Source: Dactylonectria macrodidyma
Taxonomy: Eukaryota > Ascomycota > Sordariomycetes > Hypocreales > Nectriaceae
Direction: 5' to 3'
Assembly: GCA_020744425.1 (NCBI GenBank)
Contig: JAGMUV010000017.1
Coordinates: 248,001-312,000, forward strand
DNA length: 64,000 bases
In this document: positions 34,245-43,470 of the stretch, piece by piece
Position numbering within the stretch: position 1 is the first letter of the stretch
Layout of the letters: the number at the start of each line of letters is the position of its first letter
Program-made: the position numbers and the translations under genes
The notes under the pieces: model-generated
Told to the model about the DNA's origin: nothing
The model's database searches: none
Seen by the model: the letters and a program-made list of their open reading frames with translations, nothing else

Positions 34245-35969
34245 TTAAACGGTGTCGGGCTGATCCTCCGGAAAGTCGATGTCATCTGATTCTGGAAACG
34301 CAGGGTCCGCGTGGTCCAAGAGGGCTTGCACAGCGAAGATGGGGTCAGAGTGAGGGGGAGGGGGAGGGGGGTAGTTCTGGCGGGCCTCCTGCGGCACTTG
34401 AAGGCCGCCGAGGATCGCAGCCTCATCAACGGCCGCCTCCACGAGGTGATCCTGCGGGTTTCTCACGGTGGGAATGGCCTGGTGGCCAATGTTTGGGGGC
34501 TGTATCCCTTGAAGAGCCAGCGGCCGGCCCACGGTGGTGGGGGGAACGCGCCGCCTAAAGGACTGGGGCGCAGCGGACATGGCATTGGTATAGATGCCTG
34601 CAATGTCGCTCGCGAATGACGTCGTGGTGCCCTCATCCAGCTGAATATCGTAAAGTGGGAGCAGGGCGGGCAGCATCAGCAACAACGCGGCCATACCGCG
34701 GTGAGCGAAGAGCCTCGCAGGCTCGGCGATGCCGTGCTCAACAAGCGGCGAGGCGGGCGGCTCGTGGCCGGGGAAGATCTGCTCCCACATCCGATACCAC
34801 CGCTGCCAATCACTGAGCCCGCGCGGTGTTGGCTCCAGGCAATCGGCCTCGCCCGGGAGAAGACCGTCGAGGAGAGGGCTCTCAGCGAGGTGGTGTTGCG
34901 GCCCCGTCGTACCCCGGCACTCATCACCGTTGACGTGGGCTTCCCACGGCTCGCTAGACTCCCAGATGGTCAAGCACTGGTCGCAATAGTAGAAACCTTC
35001 GAGAACATGGCATCGAAGGATGTGCTGCTTGACGTCCGAGTACCGCTTCAACTTGTACTTCTCCAAGCAGCGGTAGTGCCGCACAGGGTCAAGCTTGTAG
35101 AATGGGCAGGCGAAGAAGCGACCCGACGGACACTCTTCCTCGCCATCGTGGTGGGGCTGGTTGTCATGGTCCTTGTGTGTTTCCTCGTCGCTCTCGCCAG
35201 AGCCATCATTGTTCTTGTTATTTTTGCCCGACCGCTTTCTCTTCTTCGTCGGCCTTTCTTTTCCCTTGCCCTTCCGCTTCTCCTTCGCCTTTCCGCTTGG
35301 CTGCTGATGAACAGGGCCGGCCGGGCAGCAGGTGGGCGCTAGCCAGTTTCGCGTCCAGTAAAAGATGTCGACGACGGTGTCCCAGACGTCACCGAGCTTC
35401 GCCATCAAGAGAAGAAGCAAGTAGTAAAAATAGGCGAGGATGCAATCAGGTTGCGCCGAGACATGGCGCTGCAGCGAATGCTTCGCAATGGATCCGCAGG
35501 AGTTCGGAGGCTTTCCGGGTCGATCTGCTTCTAGGGATCCTTCGCCATCTCCAGTGCATAAGTGGCAAGCTTCCTCGTTGTTCGTGGCGCCCAGGAAATA
35601 GGGCATCGAAAGAAAAACCGGGAACGCCTCTTCCTGTCCACTCCCTCTCCTAGCGATCGGGAAAGACGAAGCTCGATGTTGTTTTGCCTTTGCAATTCGT
35701 TTCTGCTCTCTCTTAAGCCGGCGGCGGACCGTCCGGCTTTGCGTCGGGTCCCCCTCGGCGGCGAGTTTACTGAAGCCGAGTAGGCGCTGGGTGCGGGACA
35801 GGAACACCACGCAGTCGTGGGCGGTAGGAATGATATGGGCGAGAAGCGAAACACCGACGAATAGGAGGATGGTTGTGAGCAACATGATCAACATTCTGGC
35901 CAAAAAATTGTCGATGAGGAATTGCGTCGATAAGAGTCCAGGTAACGCGCACCGGTTGTCGTTTAGCAA
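34245..35969 (-). CDS. zinc-finger-like protein, paralogue A
   Basis: An intronless frame of 574 residues. Residues 25-45 are hydrophobic (LIMLLTTILLFVGVSLLA) and about 180-192 again (AYFYYLLLLL), so either the protein is membrane-anchored or the true start is a later Met such as MAKLGDVWDTV. A strongly basic Lys-rich stretch with PTKKRKRSGK is a likely nuclear signal. It is followed by an acidic stretch and the zinc-binding region at about 290-357: FACPFYKLDP, YRCLEKYKLKR, DVKQHILRCH, YYCDQC, then His and Cys. Next is the conserved WQRWYRMWEQIFP block. The C-terminus is Pro-rich, with PPPPPP. It shares this core with the genes at 38185-39801 and 41155-42441. Role unknown; DNA or RNA binding is plausible. 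Confidence 0.7.
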   Translation of the reverse strand: MLNDNRCALPGLLSTQFLIDNFLARMLIMLLTTILLFVGVSLLAHIIPTAHDCVVFLSRTQRLLGFSKLAAEGDPTQSRTVRRRLKREQKRIAKAKQHRASSFPIARRGSGQEEAFPVFLSMPYFLGATNNEEACHLCTGDGEGSLEADRPGKPPNSCGSIAKHSLQRHVSAQPDCILAYFYYLLLLLMAKLGDVWDTVVDIFYWTRNWLAPTCCPAGPVHQQPSGKAKEKRKGKGKERPTKKRKRSGKNNKNNDGSGESDEETHKDHDNQPHHDGEEECPSGRFFACPFYKLDPVRHYRCLEKYKLKRYSDVKQHILRCHVLEGFYYCDQCLTIWESSEPWEAHVNGDECRGTTGPQHHLAESPLLDGLLPGEADCLEPTPRGLSDWQRWYRMWEQIFPGHEPPASPLVEHGIAEPARLFAHRGMAALLLMLPALLPLYDIQLDEGTTTSFASDIAGIYTNAMSAAPQSFRRRVPPTTVGRPLALQGIQPPNIGHQAIPTVRNPQDHLVEAAVDEAAILGGLQVPQEARQNYPPPPPPHSDPIFAVQALLDHADPAFPESDDIDFPEDQPDTV

Positions 35970-36095: not shown

Positions 36096-36113
36096 TCGTC
36101 ACAATTGCGACGA
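36096..36113. promoter_or_regulatory. 18-bp CAATTG palindrome upstream of gene A
   Basis: TCGTC-A-CAATTG-C-GACGA is an 18-bp inverted repeat with a single mismatched pair. It contains CGCAATTGTG on the minus strand. It lies about 130 bp upstream of paralogue A. The same 10-mer recurs upstream of paralogues B and C. Confidence 0.65.
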
Positions 36114-36705
36114 AACTTCACCCCTCCCCTAGTCGTAACTGTAAAAGCATTTGCCTCTCCGGGCCTGTGACCCTTATCCGAGTGGGTGAGGCGAACTGGC
36201 GAGGTGGTCAGCCTACATGAAGTCACTTCCAGGGGTTGTGACCAATGACAAAAATTCGACAAGACAGTACATACTGGGCTGTAAAGAAATGGGAAATTGT
36301 CTCACGAGTTCCTCAAGTGGCAAGAACCTTGAAAATAACATCTTAATAGCCCAGGTTGGATTTGGGCGCGTAAACGGGGACGAAAGATAGCAACAAACCA
36401 GTGGGTCCAATACCCAAGACAGCCTGATCAGAGTCAATGGGAAGCCATCTCAGCACAGGTTTCAGGTGTAGTTGCCTTGCAGTCTCAGGCAGCCTACAAG
36501 GCGGTTTTCATTCCTCGACCGCAGACAGCCTCGTTGATCCGGAAGAAAAGGTGATGCTCACTCGAGAACCAAGCCTTTGTTTACATGCACGCATTGTTTT
36601 ATGCAGGCTCGAGTCGACAAACTCGGTGGATCGAGAAGCCTCGCGGGCTTTCCACGGCCAACGTCGTATAGGCGCAGCTGATGGAGTTCCAGGGGCATCT
36701 TACGG

Positions 36706-36715
36706 CGCAATTGTG
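36706..36715 (+). promoter_or_regulatory. CGCAATTGTG site
   Basis: An exact copy of the shared motif with partly symmetric flanks (ACG...CGT). A weaker relative, AGCAATTGTG, follows at 36766-36775. Upstream of paralogue A, about 740 bp from its start. Confidence 0.5.
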
Positions 36716-36934
36716 TCGTCGGGGGGAGTCAACCAGGAAGCCCGCGACGAGATGCGGATGCTCTGAGCAATTGTGATGGCGAGTTTGACACGTTTGTGAG
36801 AAGATGGCATCAGATTGAAGTTAAGAAATAAATTCGATGCATTAGATGGGTCATGAACTTCAATTGTTTAACCCTCTAGCAAAACACAACCCAACCAACC
36901 ACCCGAAATTCCACGCATCCTCACTGGAGCAATC

Positions 36935-37077
36935 ATGTCCACGACTACTCAGACCACGTAAGTTGTGCACGCATCTTTACTCTAGTATTTTGCTAATAAA
37001 TTTCTCTGGCTCTCAAGTTCAGCGCAGAGCCAGCGGTCTCTAAGAGAAGACCGTCTCCAGGACTGGTGGTCAGATGA
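36935..37077 (+). CDS. tiny two-exon frame or 5' remnant of a gene
   Basis: ATG at 36935 opens MSTTTQT. A 65-bp intron (36958-37022) has a good gtaagt donor, a tgctaat branch site and a ttcag acceptor. The second exon then reads AEPAVSKRRPSPGLVVR and stops at 37075-37077, 25 residues in all. The near-perfect intron in a typical first-intron position suggests the 5' end of a once longer gene, or a real micropeptide or upstream leader. No family recognised. Confidence 0.3.
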
Positions 37078-37717
37078 TGGCCTTGCGCTCCAAGGCAGAC
37101 TTATAGTTGGGGGGTGGAACAGCACGGCGCAGTGCTACGCAGCCGCAGTAACAGAGCCCAAGACAGAACGGAAACGAAGTGGGAAGAAAATGCACAAGAA
37201 GCGTTAGATGATACACTTTACACTTAATACCTATTCCACCTGTGCGACTACTTCGAGTTCCTTGCCTCATCATCATTCGGGCATTAATTGACAATGATGT
37301 CTTGTTTAAATGCTATGCCAACCGGTAATAATTGTCGAGTGGTGACCTGGTCATACGGTGAGAGCATTTTGGGGCAGCTTGTTTCCCCTAAATTTGGCTC
37401 TGGAGACGGATGACTTGTCCAGCTACAGGGCTGCGGTTTGGGGTACAGAGGGGGGCTCTTGCAGGATTTTGGAACCGCATCGTACCTAGCACTCCGTAAA
37501 GCCACCAGCGTATTACAAGGGAAAGGGGCTGGTTTGGTCATCTGTAGTGGCAGGTGGGCGGACGAGGTATCTTCCCATATAAATCAGTATGCCAAGTTAC
37601 TTGTTGGAGTATTCGGACAGCATGTCGCCCCAGCTGCACATTTGTGATATGTCTAGGCGACTGATACAGCCACGCCCCTCCACGATCTCTCGGCGGCCTC
37701 ACGGCCAACTCTTTCGA

Positions 37718-37727
37718 CACAATTGTG
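37718..37727. promoter_or_regulatory. CACAATTGTG perfect palindrome upstream of gene B
   Basis: A 10-bp perfect palindrome 458 bp upstream of the ATG of paralogue B. Confidence 0.55.
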
Positions 37728-38184
37728 CCAGCGTGCTCCTCCCCTTTCCACGTCATTCCTCAGGGATGCGATGAGGCTCTGCCCAGAATCCAGCTGGCGG
37801 TCGGTTCGCCTTGTTTCCTCCAAGCCGCTGGTTGCCTTTTTCGTTGCCTCTCTATGTCCAACGCCGGGCCGCCCAACTGCTGTCGTCTTTTTGCACGAAC
37901 TCGCCACTCTTGTCCCCTGACGCTGGGAATCTGAACCGCTTCTGTCTGCTAGTACGAAGCTGATATCTCTTTGGAGATTCACACTGTCGACTGTGCGATT
38001 AAGCACTACAAGCCAATTGCTGTACCATCAGGGCGAGCGAGGGGTGTCCATAACGCGCGAGTCGCCTTCGCTCTACAATATATCATTGATCTATTTTACT
38101 TGAAGCAAGGGGATCACATTTGTCGAGCAGCTTCGCATCCTGATCACGGTTCATCATCGCTAACAGCAAAATAGCAACGCAGCC

Positions 38185-39801
38185 ATGCTGGCATGCCGAA
38201 TCGAGCGCCAAGTCCACGCACCGACCGACCCATATGAGCTCTGGGATTCAAATCGAGATGACGAGACAAACCTTCTAAACAATACCAAGAGCTTCAGTGA
38301 GTACCCGCACACTCGGGCAAATACCATGACCTCACAAGCGCACCCAGCACTGCCATCGTCGCAGACATTGAACATCATCTCATCCCAAAACGTCTCCTCC
38401 GTGTGGCCTACCACCCATACTCTGGGTAGTCCATCCGAAATCATCAGTACTTGGTTCACCAGGGTCAGGCAGGCCAGTTCTACGCTGGCATACATTTTAA
38501 CAAATGCTATTCTCCAACATGACACATCTTCGTCGGTCCTGGCGCCCATGCACGACCTTGTACTGACAGCCTCCTGTTCAAGGTCAAGTTTGGATGACAC
38601 CAAGATGCGCCATCTGCAACAAAGGTCGCCTAGATCAACCCAAAAGCCCTCATCTAGGGCTACAGCCGTCCCAAAGCGTGAAGGCAAAAAGGTTGACACC
38701 GACATACAACCGCAGCGCAAACGGAGCCGTGGAAATGCCAACCATCGCGGTTTCGACGATGACAAAGACGACAGCTCGGATGACGACAAGAGCCATACTC
38801 ATACCGGTATACAGCGCGAAGGAAAGACCAAGGCGGAAGCCTCAGCATTTGCATGTCCCTTTTTCAGGATGTTTCCGATTCGCCACATGGATTGCGTAAA
38901 CCGCAAGTTGACGCGGATTCGAGATGTCAAGCAGCATATCCAACGGCGACACTCGCAGGAGCAAGTTGACTTCTATTGCCCGACGTGCTACGAAATCTTC
39001 CCTTCAGCTATCCCGCGCGACGTTCACGTCAGATCTCGTGGCTGCGATGCCCCGGCATATCCTGGGGGTGACAACTCCGAAGGTGCTTCGCTGGAGGCGC
39101 AACATCTCCTGAAGTCTCGTGTCGACAGGACGTTGACGCAGGTCGACCAATGGTTCGCAATCTGGGACATTCTGTTCAAAGATAAATCCCGGCCAGCCAA
39201 TCCATATCTCGGTACGGTGATGGAGGAAACCATGAGGATGATTCGAGTTTTCTCGAGGCAGGAGGCTCCTCAACTTGTCCCCGCTGTTCTCGAGAGTAAT
39301 AAAATGCCAGGCAGGGAGGATGGGAATCTCGTGCCTCTTCTTCTGGACCTGCTTGAAAAAGTTCAGGACCGCTTCGAGCAGCGGACTCGCGAGTCAAGCA
39401 CTGCTAACAGCCCAGAAAACTTTTCTAGCAGCGGCCAAAACTCGACTCCAGCTCACTACGAACTACCGCCTTTCTCGGGGACTCTAATCTCTTCCCCTTT
39501 GCCATTAAGAGATTTTCAGCCTTGTCGTTTTCAGCCTAGGACATTACCATCCCCTATCCAGTATGGGAATGGGACATTGACGGTCCCGGAGCCGTGGCAC
39601 GCAATGAACACCGAAATTGTCTCGACAACTGATGTTTCACTCTGGGATGACGAACAGACACTGCCATTCATAGACTTGACTGCAACCCATGGTTTCGTTC
39701 AGGAATATCCCGAAGATATGGTAGGGGATTTGTGCTTCCAGGTGGAAGGGGCTGGTCCCGAGTGGTTCCCCGAACCAGTGGATCAGCCTACTTGTCAATA
39801 A
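38185..39801 (+). CDS. zinc-finger-like protein, paralogue B
   Basis: An intronless frame of 538 residues starting MLACRIERQVH. The N-terminal 170 residues are Ser/Thr-rich and probably disordered. A basic stretch (PQRKRSRGN) then an acidic run (DDDKDDSSDDDK) precede the zinc-binding region at about 223-285: FACPFFRMFP, DCVNRKLTRIRDVKQHIQRRH, FYCPTC, then a C-terminal His and Cys. The conserved block DQWFAIWDILF follows about 45 residues later, with NPYLGTVMEE. The C-terminal 150 residues are Pro/Ser-rich and acidic, like an activation region. The same core and domain order occur in paralogues A and C, with low identity elsewhere. A CACAATTGTG site lies upstream. Function unknown; a nuclear regulator is the simplest guess. 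Confidence 0.75.
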   Translation: MLACRIERQVHAPTDPYELWDSNRDDETNLLNNTKSFSEYPHTRANTMTSQAHPALPSSQTLNIISSQNVSSVWPTTHTLGSPSEIISTWFTRVRQASSTLAYILTNAILQHDTSSSVLAPMHDLVLTASCSRSSLDDTKMRHLQQRSPRSTQKPSSRATAVPKREGKKVDTDIQPQRKRSRGNANHRGFDDDKDDSSDDDKSHTHTGIQREGKTKAEASAFACPFFRMFPIRHMDCVNRKLTRIRDVKQHIQRRHSQEQVDFYCPTCYEIFPSAIPRDVHVRSRGCDAPAYPGGDNSEGASLEAQHLLKSRVDRTLTQVDQWFAIWDILFKDKSRPANPYLGTVMEETMRMIRVFSRQEAPQLVPAVLESNKMPGREDGNLVPLLLDLLEKVQDRFEQRTRESSTANSPENFSSSGQNSTPAHYELPPFSGTLISSPLPLRDFQPCRFQPRTLPSPIQYGNGTLTVPEPWHAMNTEIVSTTDVSLWDDEQTLPFIDLTATHGFVQEYPEDMVGDLCFQVEGAGPEWFPEPVDQPTCQ

Positions 39802-40643
39802 TTTCACCAACAGACCACGAGGTACTTAGCATGTCTGTTGTTCCGTATGCTTCAGCTGATTCTTCCCCATTCCTAGATTGAAGATTTCATTGCTTATAGA
39901 AATACAAATATGTCATTAGTTTAGATGTTCTTTGCCAAGTTCTTGATTTTAATCTCAAAGGAAAATGAGTTGATACAGTGGCACAAAGATTTAAGCCCAT
40001 ACAAGGCGGAATGGTGTTGATACTAACCTGACTACTTTTACGCTTTGCAATAGATGCGTAGCTGCCACGGTAATTACAAGACAAAGCCAACCCCTGCCTT
40101 ATACCAGTATTTGCTGAAGCAAAGAACTCATATGCAATTATCTATTTCCGCCGAACGTAACCTGGGTCAAATTTGCCGCGCATAGTGTATGTGTAGCACA
40201 AGATTCTGCCACACTGCGCTTAACATGGCTAACGAGCTGGGAAACCTCGCGGCCATCAATCTGCTTCGGCCAATATTAGTTTGCGTTCATCAGCTGGCAG
40301 CTAGCTAGAATTATTGTACTTTTATTATTTCATGACATGCGGGCAATCAACTGGGCTCATCAAATAAGATCATAGCCGAAAGAAAATACGCACATTCATT
40401 TCTTTACTTCGAATTAGTAGCAGATATTAATAAAATGTATTCATTATAGTCATGTGGATTGGGCTTTTGTTGCACTGTGAGTCCTATCTCTAGGATGCCC
40501 GAGGGGGTCTAGAGACCGGATTCCCAGCAGGAGCCACAGAGGGCTGGATCTAGGGCTTCCTTTTTCGAACCTTCAGCTCCGTGACTGTCCGGAACCGCAC
40601 CTCCGTCAAGGATCGGAGGGGTCCAGAGGTCGCCGTAGACCGC

Positions 40644-40645
<2 letters not shown>

Positions 40646-40675
<30 letters not shown>
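40646..40675. repeat. CAT trinucleotide microsatellite
   Basis: About nine consecutive CAT units ending in CAC. Not in a coding frame that I can support. Confidence 0.9.
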
Positions 40676-40700
40676 CTTAGATCCTCGTTCTATCGTATAG

Positions 40701-40743
40701 ATGTAACAACCTTTTTTCGTCGTTTTATTCAAGATTGTTACAT
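40701..40743. repeat. short inverted repeat, possible element end
   Basis: atgtaacaa (40701-40709) and ttgttacat (40735-40743) form a 9-bp inverted repeat around a T-rich loop. TG...CA ends are seen in LTRs, but no second copy or target duplication is visible. Confidence 0.35.
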
Positions 40744-41154
40744 AGATCAAAGGGGTACAGCAATTACAAACAATAAGGGCACACACTAACATCACACTTA
40801 ATACAAAGAAATATAGTCATCAACACAATAGTATTTGCTGCGCATGTATCGTTGTTATCGGTCCTCAATGAATGCAATATCACAGCATCAGTGCTCATTC
40901 TTGAGAAAATTCAACTACGCACCGCAACGAGACCAAATATTACGAGATGAGGCAGAACACGTAGTTTTGATTTATATGATCTCCCATGTCCACCGACAAT
41001 CTCGAACTTCACTACATGTTTCTCCCACTACATAATTCGCTACTCCTTGCAATCCCCTCAGTTTCCCCAATCCCCACGACACTTACACAATTCCATCGTC
41101 CACGCTGCTCCAGGCTCTCCGTCTTCCCATCTCAACGACATTCTTCAACAGCCC

Positions 41155-42441
41155 CTATGCATTCTCAAACGCCATGCTCAATAAGTCTTGCAACATTAGT
41201 CTATGAATTGCGGCCTCCGCACTGCTCTCACCCCCCTGCTTCCGACGAACCAGGCTGTGCCGAGCCAAGTACTGCTCAATGTAATCCCTGCCGTGGAGAC
41301 CCCAATGGTCTCGTACCATAGTTACCATCAACTCGACGCCATCTTCAAGGTACGGCGAGCGACAGAGTTCGGTTTTGGGGAAGACAGTAGCCCAGACGCG
41401 CTGCCACCGCTTCGTCACGCCGAGGTGCAATTTGTCCCCCCTCAGCAGCTGGGCCTTTTGATATGCACTGACCCCATCGATGACCTTCGGACTGCGAAGC
41501 TCGCACGTCCTCGCCCGGGCGTGGTTGTCTCGGTCCACGGCTCTATCGAATGTCTGGCGACACATCGGGCAATATGGTGGCTGCGTATGATGTTTTCGGA
41601 TGTGGTGAATCACATCTTCGACTGACTGAAGGTCGTGCTGCAACAGGCATTTCTGGTACCTTGTTGGGTTTGAGACGTAGAAGGGACAGGCCAGGTGGAA
41701 GTATCCATCGACGCGGGAGACGACGACGAGTTCAGGGTCGTCTTGGTCCTCCTCCTCAAGATATCCTGATTGAGACTTCCAGTCGGTTGTTCTGGCGCGC
41801 TTGCGAGGCGGTGGTCTGTTGTCTGGCGGTGCATCGTATCTCGCCGAGGCCAATCGGGCCTGAATCTTGTCGTACAAAGACTCCCGCATACCTGCTCGCA
41901 TGCTTTGAAAGTCGTGATCCGTATCTGAATTGCACTCTCCAACTATTACATCATCGCACAGCGACCTGTCGTCTTTATTGAAGATATCCTCTTCGGAATC
42001 ACCATCACTGCTTGAGGAACCGTCGTCCAGTTCACTTTCAGACGAAGACACCCCATCATCTTCGCCGTCCAAGATCTCAACGGGGAAAGTTGTTCCACGA
42101 CGCTGGTGGCTTTTGACACCCGTTATAGGCTTCCCAGACCTGCTCCGTTTGGTTCCCCAAGGACGCGTTAGGTAGTCGTACGGCTCGAACAGGTAGAATG
42201 GACAATACTCTACAGCTGCGTCGTCGGTCTCGTCGGACTGGGATTGGCTTGCTGATACGGCGTGCCCCTCTCTAGGTCGGTATGGTATAGTGCTGATTGA
42301 ACCGTCTTTAGATATGGCTTGTCGTGCCTCTGCATCTGCAAGCCAGGTGTGTGATAGTATGGCGTAGGAAGGGAGTTCCGTATCAGGACAATCAACCACT
42401 TGACCTGTATTGACATGAGGAAGTTTCATTTTTAAATCCAA
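41155..42441 (-). CDS. zinc-finger-like protein, paralogue C, with truncated HET start
   Basis: 428 residues, intronless. The start is MDLKMKLPHVN; Met5 is also possible. Residues 5-45 (MKLPHVNTGQVV ... LPSYAILSHTWLADAEA) match the first block of HET domains, in which a short leader is followed by YAILSHTW, but the rest of the HET domain is absent. An orphan CPFY motif follows at about 80 (EYCPFYLFEPYDYL), then a Ser/Asp-rich acidic stretch, basic PPPRKRARTTDWK, and the full zinc-binding region at about 250-312: LACPFYVSNP, QKCLLQHDL, VIHHIRKHH, YCPMC, His, Cys. The conserved TKRWQRVWATVFP and SPYLEDGVE block follows. It looks like a fusion of a HET fragment with the A/B-type core. HET proteins act in heterokaryon incompatibility, so a role in recognition or cell death is possible but unproven. 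Confidence 0.72.
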   Translation of the reverse strand: MDLKMKLPHVNTGQVVDCPDTELPSYAILSHTWLADAEARQAISKDGSISTIPYRPREGHAVSASQSQSDETDDAAVEYCPFYLFEPYDYLTRPWGTKRSRSGKPITGVKSHQRRGTTFPVEILDGEDDGVSSSESELDDGSSSSDGDSEEDIFNKDDRSLCDDVIVGECNSDTDHDFQSMRAGMRESLYDKIQARLASARYDAPPDNRPPPRKRARTTDWKSQSGYLEEEDQDDPELVVVSRVDGYFHLACPFYVSNPTRYQKCLLQHDLQSVEDVIHHIRKHHTQPPYCPMCRQTFDRAVDRDNHARARTCELRSPKVIDGVSAYQKAQLLRGDKLHLGVTKRWQRVWATVFPKTELCRSPYLEDGVELMVTMVRDHWGLHGRDYIEQYLARHSLVRRKQGGESSAEAAIHRLMLQDLLSMAFENA

Positions 42442-42633
42442 AAGGATTCGGAGCTCAAGTGCCCTGCATTGGTCTCGTCGATAAGGCGTACTATTGTCCG
42501 GAGAAGTCGTTCTTATATAATCTAACAGATTGACCTCAAGATCGATTGGCGCCTAGGATGACACTGTGCCCACAAATATCACCTGACGCTAAGCAGGGGT
42601 GGATCTGTGTCAACGTCGGTGTGATGACTGAAT

Positions 42634-42647
42634 CGCACAACTGTGCG
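42634..42647. promoter_or_regulatory. CGCACA-AC-TGTGCG inverted repeat
   Basis: A 14-bp inverted repeat with two central bases (AC). It is a variant of the CACAATTGTG family (CACAACTGTG). About 190 bp upstream of paralogue C. Confidence 0.45.
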
Positions 42648-42698
42648 CTTCAGCCGTAGGCACGTCTGATGTTCGCGCTACTCCGATGCGTCTTCGCA

Positions 42699-42708
42699 CA
42701 CAATTGTG
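42699..42708. promoter_or_regulatory. CACAATTGTG perfect palindrome upstream of gene C
   Basis: Identical to the site upstream of gene B, 258 bp upstream of the paralogue C start. Another relative, CGCAATTGTG, is at 42917-42926. Confidence 0.6.
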
Positions 42709-42916
42709 ACGATTGTAACGTGGCGCATATTCAGCTCGTACATCGCCAGGTAAGCGATGCTCTAATACCATTGAAACGGGGCGGTTGCGAGGCTGCAAAT
42801 CACCGCCGCGACCATGTTCGCAATAAATGGTTCTCCATTTATTTATGAACTTTTGGCTTCTTATCTTTTTTCACTGGGCTGCCTGCGGCGGCGGTATTAG
42901 TGAAGAAGTGCTGCCG

Positions 42917-42926
42917 CGCAATTGTG
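42917..42926 (+). promoter_or_regulatory. CGCAATTGTG site
   Basis: An exact copy of the 10-mer found at 36706, with flanks GCCG...CTGCG. About 475 bp upstream of paralogue C. Confidence 0.5.
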
Positions 42927-43254
42927 CTGCGAACCCAAACGTGTGTCGTTCAAGGCGCAGCTCCCCTCAATGGAGTCACACGACAAGGGTCACCCGTTGG
43001 GAAGGGCACGAGCAAATGTGCTGAGCTGCTGCAATTTGCTACAAGTAGGCCATTCCATGCCGTCGACCCGCAGTAGCCCGTCTTACATCCGTTGCCATAC
43101 GCAACACATCCGTAACTACAGTCCTCACATTTGTTACGAAGTCACACAAGTAGGGTGGCTTCTGGTTGGCCTCTTCCCTTCAAGGCACTTGCGACCCACG
43201 TCTGTCCATTGATTGTCTGCCTGGCAAAGGTTTGTCTCTCCCAGGGTTGAAAGC

Positions 43255-43470
43255 CACTACTAAATCTACATTTATTTAAAAAAAAAATTTAGCCAACTCA
43301 AGTTAGTAGGTAAATGTAATAAATGCCTATTCTAGTAAGCTCTTTATTAACCTAGTAACAAGTAGCTATATTAATAAGATATAAATAACTTTAATCCTTT
43401 CTTCTAATATTTCTTACTTTAGCTAATAATTATAAATATTTATATATCTTAGCTTAGTTTATAAGGTGTA
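43255..43470. repeat. AT-rich, probably RIP-mutated island
   Basis: A sudden run of roughly 200 bp that is mostly A and T, rich in TA steps (ctagtaa, ttagctaa, tatatat) and without coding frames. The borders are sharp. This resembles a fragment of a transposable element mutated by RIP, but no element could be identified. Confidence 0.5.

Follow-up and report, generated by a model that had tools for sequence, protein, structure and literature searches.

What does a short palindrome do that recurs in front of neighbouring genes for related zinc-finger proteins, and how far does its use extend? The question is raised by a 64,000-nucleotide stretch of the fungus Dactylonectria macrodidyma (contig JAGMUV010000017.1, positions 248,001 to 312,000; here called the window). 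A preliminary description of it had noted CRCAATTGTG in the upstream regions of the zinc-finger paralogues A, B and C and had suggested a common regulator, perhaps one of the three proteins acting on its own family. The sites mark one gene module and not the zinc-finger family. This module comprises A and B, which are divergent, a small gene, D, that had been missed and lies between them, and C, which lies beyond. The palindromes are probably the operators of a symmetric dimer that co-regulates A-D-B-C, the most likely candidate being a protein encoded by the module itself (A, B or C), and, to judge from their distribution, they may act as a switch private to this group of genes.

Within the window CRCAATTGTG occurs at five distinct places (seven match rows), all inside 6.83 kb, with none in the rest. 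Dinucleotide shuffles of the window, 100 in number, gave a mean of 0.39 rows and a maximum of 3, so that seven was never reached. All five places had been listed before, four at their exact coordinates and the first two bases off. The two variants reported earlier are also present, at 36766 and 42636, with a further relaxed site at 37637, and the 18-bp inverted repeat described at 36096 was found as such, eight of its nine base pairs being symmetric. The claim that the sites are upstream of A, B and C holds, at about 210 bp for A and C and 463–544 bp for B. The site at 36706 is near neither A nor B; it lies before D. The relaxed form of the motif, CACANNTGTG, which was chosen after k-mer counts, does not occur in the remaining 53.5 kb of the window.

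The clustering also stands out at the scale of the genome (77.28 Mb in 77 contigs, the window being on the contig called C9 below). CGCAATTGTG is found at 100 places and CACAATTGTG at 47, making 147 CRCAATTGTG sites with the window's five included, vs 37 and 18 for the respective reversed words (194 match rows vs 73). Relative to the dinucleotide content of the window the word is not over-represented genome-wide: about 470 rows are expected on scaling from 0.39 per 64 kb, and 194 were seen. The group in the window is the densest in the genome, the next being groups of two sites in 7 kb at C1:6884906, C3:885174 and C8:813399. Five sites in 6.83 kb compare with 0.013 expected (P 3e-12). With a correction for all windows P is about 3e-8; with a local background raised fivefold it would be 1e-4. 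The preliminary description had named, as the outcome that would count against it, a motif equally common near unrelated genes. The genome scan did not show this, the gene group holding 5 of the 147 sites in 0.009% of the genome.

Table 1. Motif sites and genes of the A-D-B-C module, in window coordinates; distances are from the site centre to the ATG of the gene named.
Feature	Position	Strand	Distance (bp)	Remarks
CGCAATTGTG site	36100..36109	-	A, ~211	core of the 18-bp TCGTCACAATTGCGACGA
TCGTCACAATTGCGACGA, 18-bp element	36096-36113			8/9 symmetric base pairs match
CGCAATTGTG site	36706..36715	+	D, 225	229 bp from the site to the ATG
Variant AGCAATTGTG	36766..36775	+		1 mismatch; read from sequence
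Relaxed site CACATTTGTG	37637..37646		B, ~544	CACANNTGTG form
Perfect palindrome CACAATTGTG	37718..37727	both	B, ~463	downstream of D
Relaxed site CACAACTGTG	42636..42645		C, ~212	
Perfect palindrome CACAATTGTG	42699..42708	both	C, ~275	
CGCAATTGTG site	42917..42926	+	C, ~493	
Gene A	34245..35894	-		zinc-finger paralogue P0108, 549 aa, hydrophobic N-terminus
Gene D	36935..37207	+		70 aa, basic tail
D exon 1	36935-36957	+		23 bases, then phase-2 intron; predicted, splice sites read by eye
D exon 2	37018-37207	+		predicted, splice sites read by eye
Gene B	38185..39801	+		zinc-finger paralogue; P0003 in the database (521 aa), a model that departs from the open frame over a short stretch
Gene C	41155..42429	-		zinc-finger paralogue P0042, 424 aa; relatives fused to a HET domain

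Gene D came to light through a motif site on another contig (C45:2688746), where there is a small two-exon frame; a frame of like plan was then seen in the window. D has no match among Pfam families or PDB sequences. A protein search of the genome with its second exon, which is independent of the motif, finds two places only, D itself and C1:6885214-6885312 (55% identity over 33 aa, E 1.8e-5), and this orphan D has the 23-base first exon and intron phase of its window counterpart. The orphan (C1:6885125) is located between two CACAATTGTG sites, one at −219 (centre 215 bp before the ATG) and the other at +631, with CACAGATGTG at −699; the two are the pair at C1:6884906 mentioned above as among the densest in the genome. 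By chance, at least two sites within 1 kb either side would be expected with a probability of 7e-6, and one falling within 60 bp at the distance observed with 1e-4. At the DNA level C9 and C1 resemble each other over no more than 26 bp within the D coding core, apart from two chance-like matches (E 0.81), so the matching site distance was not simply inherited with flanks that can still be aligned. The family searches revealed none of the A, B or C domains within the 3-kb orphan locus on C1. The motif thus follows D as well as the zinc-finger genes. On C45 CACAATTGCG is 207 bp (centre 203) before the D-like frame.

The motif also recurs on C17, where, as on C9, a cluster holds one paralogue of each kind (C2 and C45 have another set and C7 has two). 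The 4.5 kb upstream of the three C17 paralogues contain six CACANNTGTG sites vs 0.055 expected, and before the A gene there, whose ATG was read by eye, sites are at about 238 and 255 bp. Between the C17 B and A genes is a D-like copy (C17:826900-827160, minus strand; L053), which a leave-one-out D profile recovers (E 0.003). Its frame is short, with no clear splice donor, and it looks degraded; several near-motif words persist upstream of it, CGCAATGGCG (one base off the word) 252 bp before it and others of the kind at −300, −322 and −388. A dyad scan covered all inverted 3-, 4- and 5-mers with spacers of 0–12 in nine cluster sets. Among 4-mers, CACA-N2-TGTG heads the ranking for two of the nine sets only, C9 (P 3e-7, against 1.9e-5 for the best of 30 shuffles) and C17 (1.3e-9 against 4e-6, likewise from 30 shuffles). 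Among 5-mers the top C17 dyad was no better than its shuffles. The half-sites of the two clusters differ: those of C9 prefer C at position −8 and AA beside the centre, and those of C17 have pyrimidines in front of CACA and no preference at the centre. The C17 half-sites come from nine sites selected by eye, among them three CACNNNNGTG variants; CRCAATGGYG sites were excluded.

Could the word be a functionless leftover of duplicated promoter DNA, or have arisen by chance in promoters with AT-centred sequence? The paralogy of the genes is itself old, and short imperfect direct repeats 17 bp apart at some C17 sites inflate the C17 count. Against this, neither the promoters of C9 and C17 nor those of C9 among themselves share alignable DNA beyond the sites (best E about 0.15), C9 and C1 cannot be aligned outside the D coding core, and the density and position of the sites are far from random. 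An origin of this type is quite improbable. Highly improbable, too, is a role of the palindromes as recognition or target sites for a recombinase or mobile element by which the cluster was moved. The module does exist in several copies, and D is by itself on C1; however, the sites are at fixed distances before start codons and not at the cluster borders, and no longer repeat is shared around them.

How far the motif extends into the zinc-finger family was assessed with genome searches using the A, B and C domains. These gave 28, 32 and 35 matches, from which 28 full-domain paralogues were kept; L051 and L052, both short and containing a stop, were left out, as were five partial matches (C9:859640, C1:7075133, C6:581104, C34:3769800 and C1:6532010). 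With a locus taken as the domain and 1.5 kb either side, CRCAATTGYG is present at A, B and C and at none of the other 25, and regulation of the whole family, as first proposed, is therefore not supported. Extending the reach to 4 kb adds three CRCAATTGTG sites, at C45, C17 and C11, vs 0.40 expected (P 0.008). The relaxed CACANNTGTG (943 places genome-wide vs 606 for its reversed control) occurs 12 times in the 41.7 kb upstream of the 28 domains, at 7 of the 28 loci, and is absent from the domains and the DNA downstream of them (53.3 kb). The enrichment before other family members that the preliminary description had proposed looking for is clear at the C17 trio only, and there in this relaxed form. 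It is not clear for the remaining 22 paralogues outside C9 and C17 (2 vs 0.40 expected, P 0.06). What is supported of the earlier suggestion is a common regulator as the best reading, the sites being far above chance and having the symmetry expected of a dimer site; regulation of the family as such is not supported. In a tree of the paralogues B belongs to a group with support 96/98, C groups with C17:850499 (97/96), and A with C9:860528 and C17:828913 (94/92), the C17 member being on a long branch and unsure in its placement.

Other features of the family were seen along the way. Three long C-type paralogues on three contigs (C8:668717, C45:2697079 and C35:336984; L042, L045 and L049) are nearly identical in sequence, which suggests recent duplication. 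The type-2 clusters on C2 (47753, 47878) and C45 (2689570, 2689695) each have two ACGC-N4-GCGT palindromes between A and B, spaced by exactly 125 bp in both without alignable DNA; this is possibly a second private operator, though the word is not rare genome-wide. A 15-bp tandem repeat, TGCTGGGAAGGGTGC, is before or within a C7 paralogue (L036, upstream of 1239870). On C8 there are six CACANNTGTG sites in 6.2 kb (L060, C8:812401-820400) with no clear large gene; a minus-strand frame at C8:816148 resembles D weakly (E 0.55).

A different kind of binder has to be considered. Ndt80/VIB-1-type proteins have the consensus gNCRCAAAW, and basic helix-loop-helix (bHLH) proteins recognize the E-box CANNTG. 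A general host factor of either type, encoded outside the cluster and with the module merely one of its targets, would account for the 147 sites in the genome and their excess over the reversed word. Seven of the 16 C9 half-sites read GNCRCAA, and CANNTG is contained in every site. CRCAATTGTG and CACAGATGTG occur within 3 kb of each other six times vs 1.14 expected (among the 100 of 105 CACAGATGTG rows listed), beyond the module too. However, the centre is AT and not the AA of the Ndt80 site, the half-sites at C17 and C1 do not fit GNCRCAA, and five sites at one locus with at most two elsewhere are unlike a general regulon. Nor are HET genes enriched near the motif, which tells against a VIB-1 regulon, 2 of the 147 sites being within 3 kb of 150 HET matches vs 1.7 expected (150 of 286 HET candidates were scored). 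A host factor is, all told, a somewhat unlikely explanation. Among the 21 other CRCAATTGTG places inspected, three, all on C1, are beside incompatibility- or NLR-looking genes: L013 is a HET match, and L008 and L010 were judged by eye.

Returning to operators read by a protein of the module, a symmetric core, a fixed distance, four genes and independent recurrence together point to a dimer operator, and A, B and C are the candidate binders since the site is largely confined to their own modules and D. The dimeric protein would recognize a pair of CACA half-sites, inverted and separated by two bases (CACA-N2-TGTG, mostly CRCA-AT-TGYG in the present sites). Operators some 200–275 bp upstream of the A, D and C start codons, and farther away for B, would make the four neighbours one regulatory unit, and with a binder from the module itself that unit would be self-regulating. 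Self-regulation would also explain why the paralogous type-1 clusters have a common core and differ in spacer bases and flanks. The sites, their clustering, their positions and their recurrence at C1 and C17 without alignable promoter DNA are established by calculation. Binding by a protein, its dimeric nature and its origin in the module are what we infer from them, and the identity of the regulator likewise. One symmetric site is indeed present before several genes of the cluster and rare elsewhere, and it recurs before homologous genes at independent loci, namely the orphan D of C1 and the C17 triplet (and C45 if the D-like frame there is accepted). Compared with the original observation the motif is the stronger for its position and for D, C1 and C17, and the weaker in not being family-wide.

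Several points weigh against this interpretation. The hydrophobic N-terminus of A is odd for a nuclear regulator. The zinc finger, as read from the sequence, is of unusual spacing (C-x12-C-x14-H-x4-H, then a C-x2-C..H..C unit), and a Pfam scan of A, B and C gave no family over the cut-off. The AlphaFold model of B is confident only around the zinc finger and the helices that follow; it had no significant match among PDB folds, and a second comparison covered little beyond the helical part; neither lends support to a binder encoded by the cluster. The sites before B are outside the 200–275 bp range. About 140 further CRCAATTGTG sites exist elsewhere, most without a known role; 22 other loci (21 places) inspected by eye have unrelated genes, and the co-occurrence with CACAGATGTG is also seen at C5, C8, C13 and C16, outside the module, where a convincing D was looked for and not found. 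The P values for CACANNTGTG are partly post hoc, the motif having been picked after k-mer inspection, and 21 of the 28 paralogue upstream stretches are without it; the dyad scan was blind to the word but was run after CACANNTGTG had been chosen. As the family searches found no A, B or C domain at the C1 locus, regulation of the orphan D would require a protein acting in trans. Finally, the leave-one-out profile places the C45 frame at rank 22 (E 11), which is no sequence support, so that a D on C45 rests on position and gene plan.

In the database B is matched best by a D. macrodidyma protein, with 97% identity across the full length of the query. The closest relatives in Cylindrodendrum hubeiense are g3309 for C (59% over 92%), g3310 for A (50% over 95%) and g3312 for B (57% over 71%). 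All three are on one Cylindrodendrum contig (for each the longest contig is 179,941), and the gene content of the module is thus conserved; the tag numbers leave one gene, g3311, between A and B, which is D's place in the window. The relatives of C, P0062 and P0085, are of HET type by name or domain (PF06985 in P0085, 27.8 bits). PF06985 has no match over the cut-off in C itself, though some 27 of its N-terminal residues align to P0085 (E 0.002), and the Cylindrodendrum relative retains the middle part. By these alignments C is a zinc-finger protein derived from a HET fusion, with most of the HET part lost in the present gene model. Outside the genes, a CAT trinucleotide repeat is found between B and C (40645-40677) and an AT-rich tract with a 17-bp inverted repeat (43421-43454) upstream of C (43250-43460).

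Cluster-specific fungal regulators of the AflR type bind palindromic sites in the promoters of their own cluster. The likeness to the present case is a palindrome repeated before neighbouring genes, candidate DNA-binding-protein genes included, and rare elsewhere. The differences are that there are no biosynthetic genes here, but three candidate regulators of one family and a tiny gene, that the zinc finger is not Zn2Cys6, and that the regulator is a putative one. With HET incompatibility genes and VIB-1 the module shares the HET domain carried by the relatives of C and half-sites that partly resemble the Ndt80 word; it differs in the lack of a PF06985 match in C and of motif enrichment near HET genes at large. 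A, B and C and their database relatives bear the label of the C2H2-type domain-containing proteins of Nectriaceae and relatives, from which the spacing of their finger and the lack of a Pfam family over the cut-off set them apart.

It is conceivable, though unlikely, that A-D-B-C regulates itself as a self-contained module and is duplicated as a whole, with zinc-finger proteins, one of them HET-derived, controlling the tiny basic D through a private palindrome with copy-specific flanks. It would then be like an allorecognition or a toxin-and-guard system, each copy with its own lock (the operator) and key (the finger), and with the D of C1 under the same lock. If operators of the module's own are what the sites are, they would provide a testable regulatory code for a large fungal zinc-finger family that is unstudied, consisting of the word itself, its distance, the targets (A, D, B, C and the orphan D) and the three candidate binders. 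D would exemplify a small gene that size filters would miss, and C a protein of HET origin that may have taken on a new role. The two paralogous clusters, alike in core and unlike in spacers and flanks, would let the co-divergence of regulator and operator be followed as a natural experiment.

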